This document shows positions 12,750 to 15,010 of a stretch of DNA of 64,000 bases, in pieces. The stretch spans positions 1-64,000 of the forward strand of contig JABJQG010000018.1 in NCBI GenBank assembly GCA_018663505.1, in the 5' to 3' direction. This stretch comes from Pseudobdellovibrionaceae bacterium (GTDB lineage Bacteria > Bdellovibrionota > Bdellovibrionia > Bdellovibrionales > UBA1609). The notes beneath the pieces are model-generated. The model was given only the letters and a program-made list of their open reading frames with translations. It did not search any database and had not been told where the DNA came from. Every line of letters starts with the position of its first letter. Within the stretch, counting starts at the first letter, position 1. The position numbers and the translations under genes are program-made.

Positions 12750-14234
12750 ATGGAAAAGTATATTATAGCCATTGATCAGGGAACCACTGGCACCACAGTA
12801 AATTTGATTAATGAAAAAGGTATTTGTATTGAAAAAGTGAATAAAGAATTCCCGCAAATCTTTCCTAAAGCAGCTTGGGTGGAACACAATCTAGATGATA
12901 TTTGGCAAACAGTTTTGTATGGACTAGAGTTCGTCGTTCAAAAATCAAATATTAATCCTAAAAACATTGTTGCAATTGGTATTACTAATCAAAGAGAAAC
13001 TGTGGCTCTATGGGATAAAAAAACAGGTAAAAGTGTATATAATGCTATTGTTTGGCAGTGTCGTCGGACCACAGAGTATTGTGAAAAGTTAAAAAAGAAA
13101 GGGCTAGAAAAAACGATTAAGGCTAAGACGGGGTTAATGCTAGATCCCTATTTTTCTGCTTCTAAGGTCAACTGGGTATTGAAAAATGTCAAAGGTGTGC
13201 GTGATAAAGTTAAAAAATCACAGTTAGTTTTAGGAACTATTGATACTTATTTATTATGGAAACTCACTCAAGGGAAGTCTCATAAAACTGACGTATCCAA
13301 TGCTTCACGAACCATGTTAATGAATATTAAAACAGGGTCCTGGGATAAGGAACTGTTAAAAATATTTTCCATAAATGAAAATTTATTGCCAGAAATCTGT
13401 GCTTCCAATGAAGTTTTTGGAGTTACTAAAAACATTAAAGGCTTACCTGATGGTATTCCAATTTCAGGTATTGCAGGTGATCAGCAGGCCGCTTTATTTG
13501 GTCAAGCTTGCTTTTTGGCGGGAGAAGCTAAATGTACTTTTGGCACTGGCAGCTTTATTTTAATGAACACAGGTTCTGAGTTAAAAAAATCAAAATCCGG
13601 TCTATTGACCACTGTGGCTTGGCAGCTTAAGGGTAAAAAAATAAATTATGCCTTAGAGGGCGGTGCCTTTGTTTGTGGTGCAACTATTCAGTGGTTAAGA
13701 GATGAAATGAACTTTGTAAAAGAAAGCCCTGAAATAGAGGAGTTAGCCAGAACCGTGCCCGATACCCAGGGGGTAGAATTGGTACCCGCTTTTGCTGGCC
13801 TAGGGGCGCCATACTGGAAGCCGGAGGCACGAGGTATTATTTGTGGTCTCACTCGTGGGACAAAAAAAGCACATATTGCAAGGGCAGCTTTAGAAGCCAT
13901 GGCTTTACAAAATGTGGATATTTTAAAAGCTATGGAAAAAGACCTATCAAAATCATTAAGGAGTTTAAAAGTTGATGGGGGAGCTTCAAAAAATAATTTA
14001 TTGATGCAAATGCAAAGTGATTTTTTAGGCAAAACCATTGTCCGTCCAAAAATGATAGAGACCACATCGTTGGGAGCTGCCTATTTAGCAGGATTAGGGG
14101 TAGGTCTTTGGAAAAATACAAAAGCCATTAAAGATATTTGGTCCATGGATAAAAGCTTTAAACCCGCAATGCCTGCCTCAAAACGCAAAGCACGGCTTGA
14201 GCTTTGGCAGAGTAATGTGAAGAGGTCTTTTTAA
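12750..14234 (+). CDS. glpK: Glycerol kinase
   Basis: GlpK phosphorylates glycerol to sn-glycerol 3-phosphate using ATP, feeding phospholipid synthesis and glycolysis. The product is 494 residues, the standard length. FGGY-kinase blocks are clear: IIAIDQGTTGTT (phosphate 1 loop), AIGITNQRETVALWD, VWQCRRT, GIAGDQQAALFGQACF, TFGTGSFILMNTG, PAFAGLGAPYWKPEARG and the C-terminal VDGGASKN. No glpF or glpD homologue is nearby. The gene ends only 8 bases before the left arm of a 60-bp inverted repeat, which could act as a terminator. Confidence 0.97.
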   Translation: MEKYIIAIDQGTTGTTVNLINEKGICIEKVNKEFPQIFPKAAWVEHNLDDIWQTVLYGLEFVVQKSNINPKNIVAIGITNQRETVALWDKKTGKSVYNAIVWQCRRTTEYCEKLKKKGLEKTIKAKTGLMLDPYFSASKVNWVLKNVKGVRDKVKKSQLVLGTIDTYLLWKLTQGKSHKTDVSNASRTMLMNIKTGSWDKELLKIFSINENLLPEICASNEVFGVTKNIKGLPDGIPISGIAGDQQAALFGQACFLAGEAKCTFGTGSFILMNTGSELKKSKSGLLTTVAWQLKGKKINYALEGGAFVCGATIQWLRDEMNFVKESPEIEELARTVPDTQGVELVPAFAGLGAPYWKPEARGIICGLTRGTKKAHIARAALEAMALQNVDILKAMEKDLSKSLRSLKVDGGASKNNLLMQMQSDFLGKTIVRPKMIETTSLGAAYLAGLGVGLWKNTKAIKDIWSMDKSFKPAMPASKRKARLELWQSNVKRSF

Positions 14235-14242
14235 TTGTTGGT

Positions 14243-14512
14243 TTATGATTGGGCTTTGAGGTATGGATTTCCCATTGGTACCTTTCCATCCATGGGAGAT
14301 CGAGGCTTGCTGCCTCGAGCACCACAATCTAATGGCATCGTGCCATTAGACCTAAAAAAACATTAATACCTGCGACAAACAGAATTTATTTCTTTCATTA
14401 GATTCCCCCACACGACGTGGGGGAATTGGTGGGTTCGGGCCGCCTTTAGGCCCGATCTCCCATGGATGGAAAGGTACCAATGGGAAATCCATACCTCAAA
14501 GCCCAATCATAA
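14243..14512. repeat. 270-bp foldback element: perfect 60-bp inverted repeat enclosing four hairpins
   Basis: The left arm 14243-14302 is the exact reverse complement of the right arm 14453-14512 (60 of 60 bases by my reading). The 150-base interior contains four hairpins: 14300-14318 (TCGAGGC/GCCTCGA), 14328-14350 (10-bp stem, TCG loop), 14402-14426 (10-bp stem around ATTCCCCCAC) and 14435-14455 (TCGGGCC/GGCCCGA). The first and last share bases with the main stem, so they are alternative folds. It fills the gap between glpK and trxA. It contains no credible ORF and has no obvious target-site duplication. It could be a non-autonomous transposable element, a structured RNA or a cruciform site; no class I know of fits. 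Confidence 0.9.
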
Positions 14513-14635
14513 GCCCATAAAGACTGACATAGATCAGATTTTTCATATATTACAGAATTCATATTTGAGGTGTACATTTAATTAAATTTTATATAAATTT
14601 AATTGAATAAAACTAAATGTTTCAAAGGATGTAAT

Positions 14636-15010
14636 ATGGCTTTAATGGATCTGAATGATGCTAACTTTAAAAGTACTCTTGAAGGCAACGGTATCATTAT
14701 TATTGATTTTTGGGCGCCATGGTGTGGACCATGTCAGTCTTTCAAACCTATATTTGAGAAGGCTGCAGAGAAGTATCCAGAGGTTGTTTTTGGTAAAGTG
14801 AATACCGAAGATGAACAAAAACTAGCTATGCACTTTAGTATTCGAAGCATTCCAACCATTATGGTTATTCGTGATCAAATTGAAGTCTTTTTTCAACCAG
14901 GTGTTCTTCAGGAAGCTCAGTTGCATGAGCTTGTTAACAAAGTGAAAGAACTAGATATGGAAGAAGTGAAAAAGAAAGTGGCCGAAGAAGAGGCTGCTGC
15001 TGAGCAATAG
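14636..15010 (+). CDS. trxA: Thioredoxin
   Basis: Small cytoplasmic disulfide reductase. The active site WCGPC is at residues 29-33, preceded by the usual DFWAP. The cis-proline motif is SIPT, in IRSIPTIMVI. The 124-residue product is about 15 longer than classical thioredoxin because of a charged helical tail (EEVKKKVAEEEAAAEQ), common in some lineages. The start is set by AGGAT 7 bases upstream of the ATG at 14636; the in-frame upstream codons add a non-homologous stretch. It stands alone between the foldback element and an intrinsic terminator, so it is likely monocistronic. Confidence 0.96.
   Translation: MALMDLNDANFKSTLEGNGIIIIDFWAPWCGPCQSFKPIFEKAAEKYPEVVFGKVNTEDEQKLAMHFSIRSIPTIMVIRDQIEVFFQPGVLQEAQLHELVNKVKELDMEEVKKKVAEEEAAAEQ

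Follow-up and report, generated by a model that had tools for sequence, protein, structure and literature searches.

The 64-kb window analysed here (64,000 nucleotides from a Pseudobdellovibrionaceae bacterium) carries on its forward strand a gene for a glpK-type glycerol kinase with FGGY_N and FGGY_C domains (12750–14234), whose closest named homologues are in Bdellovibrionaceae/Bdellovibrionales MAGs (60–63% identity), the group to which the host is assigned on this basis, and, downstream, a gene with a thioredoxin-domain match (14633–15010). Between them lies an inverted repeat of about 284 bp (14236–14519), somewhat wider than the 270 bp first described, which begins 2 nt past the glpK stop codon; no other inverted repeat in the window pairs a perfect 20-mer over a distance of up to 1.5 kb. 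As the earlier note had claimed, the segments at 14243–14302 and 14453–14512 are exact reverse complements at all 60 positions; when the arms are drawn to the limits of the family consensus (left arm, 14236–14302, reverse strand; right arm, 14453–14519, forward strand), 64 of 67 positions are complementary, and the inverted repeat can be extended to 73 nt at 93%. The predicted RNA fold of the element has a free energy of −188 kcal/mol, as compared with −80 ± 4.6 for shuffled sequences (z = −23), and no intrinsic terminator (a GC-rich hairpin followed by a U/T run) was found in the region.

Within the arms, the element consists of two half-units that face each other across a variable, A+T-rich spacer (14353–14400). 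The left half-unit (14283–14352, reverse strand) is recognized by our covariance model R1 with 81 bits (E 2.7e-20) and contains hairpin A of class alpha, CGAGGC-TTGCT-GCCTCG (14301–14317), and hairpin B, TCTAATGGCA-TCG-TGCCATTAGA (14328–14350), which has 10 bp and a 3-nt loop. The right half-unit (14401–14472, forward strand; 91.6 bits, E 2.0e-23) contains hairpin B, ATTCCCCCAC-ACGAC-GTGGGGGAAT (14402–14426), also of 10 bp, and hairpin A of class beta, CGGGCC-GCCTTTA-GGCCCG (14436–14454). These are the four loop hairpins, two with 10-bp stems and one with a 3-base loop, that had been listed previously, and all lie where they were said to lie; the inventory had overlooked a fifth, hairpin C (TCC-CATGGAT-GGA, 14458–14470, forward strand), which presents GGA in its loop and sits within the right arm, where it is an alternative to base pairing with the left arm.

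A family of structured half-units

The window element is one member of a large family. The host genome is a 3.78-Mb draft in 72 contigs, 97% complete, and the repeat is one of the main causes of its assembly breaks. A search for further copies, as the earlier note had advised, gave 81 BLAST matches at about 40 loci with the 270-bp query; the half-unit covariance model finds 116 half-units, or about 60 loci once half-units are paired and copies split by insertion sequences (IS) are counted in. The hairpin CCCCCACACGACGTGGGGG occurs at 47 sites per strand at up to 2 mismatches and its reversed pattern at none; since CCCCCACACGACGTGGGGG is near-palindromic, the two strands count the same sites. 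Each copy comprises two inverted half-units placed head-to-head, and the spacers are up to 93% alike between copies whose flanks are unrelated; in other words, the element has been dispersed as one unit. Two reduced forms were also seen, namely a short hairpin of arm ends alone with the interior gone, possibly a deletion fossil (L087, about 750–820; C6:12455–12518), and a copy whose interior has collapsed to a single short hairpin between the arms (L079, about 1520–1620; C72:47022–47118).

From the centre outwards, a half-unit (69–72 nt, with two or three hairpins) is made up of hairpin B (10-bp stem; ACGAC or ACGAT in the loop), some 10 nt, hairpin A (at least 6 bp), the foot GAT and the arm. 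An alignment of 66 distinct half-units reveals conserved loops and feet (GAT/ATTG and GAT) and free stems: 99.1% of stem cells hold standard pairs, changes on both sides number 239 as compared with 69 ± 6 after shuffling, and a shift of the pair partners by one column abolishes the signal. The covarying hairpins for which the earlier note had proposed to search are thus strongly in evidence, both here and in the relatives described below. The family also follows a heterodimer rule. Among 42 complete dimers, none has the same hairpin B stem class in both halves (about 13 expected) and one has the same hairpin A class as defined by regular expression (about 14 expected); even in this lone dimer the actual stems differ. 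With different stems in the two halves, the four inner hairpins are kept from pairing across halves, while the arms remain complementary.

The full arm of the family is about 69 nt long and has a sharp outer end at CTCATAAACCCATA, read outwards, most ends being of the form ...CCCATA. The two arms of a copy resemble each other more closely than arms re-paired at random do (mean score 16.8 vs 10.1 ± 1.1; 0 of 20,000 re-pairings as good), and the corresponding control with the sequence just outside the arms was not significant. The effect is bimodal: about ten copies have mutually best-matching arms, the window copy foremost among them, and the others are mosaics. The two window arms even have a small deletion in common, reading GCCCAATCATAA where the family has GCCACCCACTCATAA. 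The perfect stem had been taken as a possible sign of recent origin, a view that the copies do not support, as the closest pair of copies is 92% identical inside, no young copy was found, and the interior of the window copy reaches only 87% identity with that of its nearest relative; the perfect stem of this copy therefore does not mark a new insertion. Correction within the copy, templated by the hairpin, or selection on the stem would be the simpler reading. When the flanks were compared by eye, no common target-site duplication was recognized at the arm ends; the glpK loci of other genomes, where an empty site was sought, are not syntenic downstream.

Genomic context, insertion sequences and transposase genes

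The copies favour the space behind genes. Neighbouring genes could be called for 44 copies, which sit between convergent genes in 23 cases, tandem genes in 16 and divergent genes in 5; by mechanical ORF calls, the convergent share exceeds that of the window as a whole (7 of 41; Fisher p 0.0013). The copies abut stop codons, and most of them have one about half an element length from their centre.

The repeat is itself a target. An IS481-type insertion sequence with rve, rve_3 and LZ_Tnp_IS481 domains (L014, 54–1283, on contig C56 of the same genome; junctions in L009, L013, L038, L058, L065, L071–L078, L080 and L086) has inserted into copies of the family, and all eight of its assembled left ends fall at the same position in hairpin A, in the loop that corresponds to that of the class beta hairpin of the window copy. 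The junctions carry, by eye, a 4–5 bp duplication of the CCTT/CCCC type. Because the copies occupy only about half a percent of the genome, such insertion reflects a choice of target. Many contigs end inside copies of the repeat or inside an IS within them (e.g. C3, C24, C34, C38, C49, C53 and C64).

Candidate movers of the repeat were sought among RAYT-type and DDE transposases. The genome has 10 matches to PF01797, and none of the eight loci examined, which are those of the strongest matches, is flanked by the element, as judged by BLAST, a hairpin scan and the covariance model with filters off. At one IS200-type locus (L049), the hairpins GTGGGAGGAATTG and CCGCCTAAAGGC appeared similar by eye; the covariance model gives no match there and this candidate was dropped. 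In L051–L056, several of the Y1 (IS200/RAYT-type) genes have inverted repeats on their flanks, for example AAAAGGTACGCCGATACTTTTTGCGAC, that are unrelated to the element. For an autonomous DDE partner, searches of the 97%-complete draft with the arm core and the arm end yielded only copies of the element and fossils, and the arm-end search found no gene in this genome flanked by arms of the family.

Relatives and known systems

Outside the host genome, BLAST in 58 relatives gave no match, nor did the covariance model in 46 further members of the host's taxonomic family or searches of phages and plasmids, and the exact conserved hairpin was found in no GTDB or IMG/VR contig. According to the earlier note, a match to an Rfam family would have removed the novelty of the element; none was found at the gathering score, and the weak matches are attributable to chance. 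Elsewhere in the order, outside that taxonomic family, the first covariance model has matches in three genomes, G101 (at least 14 half-units), G119 and G041, and a retrained model adds G110, G113, G114 and G091, together with two weak matches elsewhere in the phylum. The second model was trained on the first model's matches in G101, G119 and G041 and not on the four added genomes; its scores in the first three are not independent, because these genomes are in the training set.

The relatives' half-units covary in their own right, with 94.7% of cells paired and 45 changes on both sides as compared with 18 after shuffling. Those of G101 have the spacer, hairpin A and foot in common with the family (GCGGAGCTCGAGGC..GCCTCGATTCTCAGGATGGA), and the complete G101 dimers seen combine an alpha half with a beta half, but have the same hairpin B core in both. 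Hairpin C is also present in other genera, where its stem covaries; its stem weight is 7.4, as compared with 4.2 ± 0.6 when the 3' sides are shuffled (0 of 5,000 as good), and a good stem is absent from 3 of 30 relative sequences and from two types in the host genome. Two species of a different genus in the order have a half-unit that lies between rpsG and fusA, antisense to the operon (L202, 3161–3230; L204, 3649–3718); they are G110 (one contig), a complete genome in which this is the single occurrence, and G119. Solitary copies of this kind in other genera, with their apparent retention at rpsG–fusA, are as compatible with a host function as with mobility. In other genera we also observed an abbreviated version that lacks hairpin A (CTGACGGCACGATGCCGTCAG followed by CCAAGGATGG) and lies downstream of genes or between them (L205, 2658–2702; L206, 2943–2987; L212, 3083–3139), and G101 half-units that adjoin other repeats (AAAGGTACCAGGTCGCTTTTCC and a long GTATATTATACGATTAGGTCGTCTATTATACC palindrome; L186, L190, L191 and L197).

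Knowledge of REP-type repeats comes mainly from gamma- and alphaproteobacteria; what moves them and what they are used for are both disputed. The earlier note held that the element fits no class known to its author, which is too strong: in organization, location and targeting by IS, the family is of the REP/BIME type. Like the GTAG and CGTC super-families of REP/BIME (PMC3733652), it consists of high-copy extragenic palindromes directly behind stop codons, with convergent genes enriched, arranged as head-to-head heterodimers with different stems that are hotspots for IS insertion. Di Nocera and colleagues (PMC3733652) place REP dimers, which are often heterodimers, at no more than 20 bp from the 3' end of convergent genes. 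Unlike a REP, which is one hairpin of 20–40 nt, the unit here has three hairpins and about 70 nt (dimer, about 284 nt), and no unpaired GTAG or CGTC tag is visible by eye in the alignments; in addition, the family is enclosed in 69-nt complementary arms and lives in Bdellovibrionales-type host genomes. Bdellovibrio is not mentioned in the REP survey (PMC3733652), and we found no account of such repeats in Bdellovibrio in the open-access literature. REPINs with their RAYTs (PMC3116915, PMC8266576) are likewise dispersed as two inverted hairpin units with a conserved fold rather than a conserved sequence, but no copy of the element flanks any of the eight Y1/RAYT-type loci examined here. Since the unit is too large and lacks the GTAG/CGTC tag, and no flanking RAYT was found at these loci, we regard the family as a new variant that resembles REPs rather than as a REP in the strict sense.

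Other classes share single features with it. The TIR families of TIRYT genes (PMC3733652) are also moderately abundant, partly self-complementary and without GTAG tags; however, no transposase gene lies between repeats of the present kind, and the Y1 genes inspected have inverted repeats of other kinds. ERIC, RU and Correia-type MITEs are intergenic palindromes of 100–300 bp that can be transcribed, and the present element is like them in this, but it has no Rfam, phage or plasmid match, forms four to six separate hairpins and has no visible target-site duplication. REPs are known IS targets (PMC1525189), and the exclusive use of one palindromic repeat by one IS recalls IS1397, ISKpn1 and ISPpu9/10; unlike these and the other REP-targeting IS listed in that 2006 survey, all of which belong to IS3, IS110, IS4, IS256 or IS5, the IS here is of the IS481 type.

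Origin and possible function

The window element probably belongs to a family of dispersed, structured repeats of the REP/BIME type that are non-autonomous and moved in trans. Two options put forward in the earlier note, a non-autonomous mobile element and a structured RNA, both survive, given a dispersed repeat with covarying hairpins. A trans-acting enzyme that recognizes the folded single strand may have spread the copies; it would read the ACGA and GGA loops and GAT/ATC feet, which are conserved, rather than the stems, and replication is the most plausible time for it to act, as has been suggested for REPINs. Thereafter, hairpin-templated correction or selection for a long stem could keep the arms of a copy alike. 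RNA read through from a neighbouring gene would fold in a similar way whichever side transcription came from, and might act at the 3' end as a stability element or RNase barrier rather than as an intrinsic terminator; the repeat is probably either tolerated or used as such a 3'-end RNA element. Counter-evidence to this proposal is that none of the eight Y1 transposase loci inspected is linked to the element, that neither a target-site duplication nor a recent copy was found, that no GTAG/CGTC tag was seen, and that the unit is oversized.

Could the host's use of the RNA have come first and the repeat second? The half-unit would then be a 3'-UTR motif bound by a protein via hairpin C and perhaps hairpin B, serving as a regulon-wide stabilizer or sponge. 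The GGA is invariant in the loop of a covarying hairpin in the relatives, the ACGA-type loop is conserved, copies lie directly 3' of genes, and the rpsG–fusA half-unit recurs in two species. Hairpin C has the form of a CsrA/RsmA site (GGA in a hairpin loop, ANGGA-like), although in form only, and the CsrA-like form of this predicted hairpin is a lead only. Among imperfect pairs G.T outnumbers A.C (15:3 and 6:1 overall), a strand bias that is suggestive overall, but hairpin B shows none of it in the full set (6:5), and we did not rely on it. In head-to-head copies, however, the long arm duplex swallows the GGA hairpin, and orientation to the gene is not fixed, such that we consider an RNA-first origin rather unlikely. 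A bolder version is a long shot: an order-wide RNA element, pairing a CsrA/Rsm-type GGA hairpin with an ACGA-loop hairpin at many 3' ends, through which one RNA-binding protein would act on a set of transcripts by way of a mobile repeat, the arm duplex representing the off state.

The arms might instead be the terminal inverted repeats of a DDE transposon (e.g. of the IS630 type, with a TA target) whose autonomous copy has been lost, which would make the element a classical MITE. The sharp outer end, mostly ...CCCATA, makes a TA target conceivable; this origin is nonetheless doubtful, as the arm-end search returned only copies and fossils with no arm-flanked gene, no target-site duplication was recognized by eye, conserved covarying internal hairpins are unexpected in a MITE, and lone half-units in other genera lack such arms. 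A bidirectional terminator, or a purely mechanical 3' barrier of local origin, would suit a very stable fold that separates convergent genes and follows directly on stop codons, but is distinctly improbable: the region has no hairpin with a T run, and a terminator needs neither dispersal, nor conserved loops and feet, nor homology across genera. Finally, a false second arm created by assembly would be easiest to imagine in a draft of 72 contigs, several of which end inside copies, and the earlier note had raised this concern; with dozens of independent two-armed copies of different sequence at unrelated loci, and likewise in one relative, it is very hard to credit.

The family represents a further and apparently unrelated system of REP-like repeats, in a predator-rich order, and its IS481-type element adds to the list of insertion sequences that specialize on palindromic repeats. 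The rules of the repeat are unusually legible: loops and feet are conserved, stems vary freely, the two halves strictly differ, and the arms of a copy match. As genomes with many copies can be compared with genomes with few, selection on structure after insertion, the identity of the recogniser and the likeness of the arms should all be amenable to testing.
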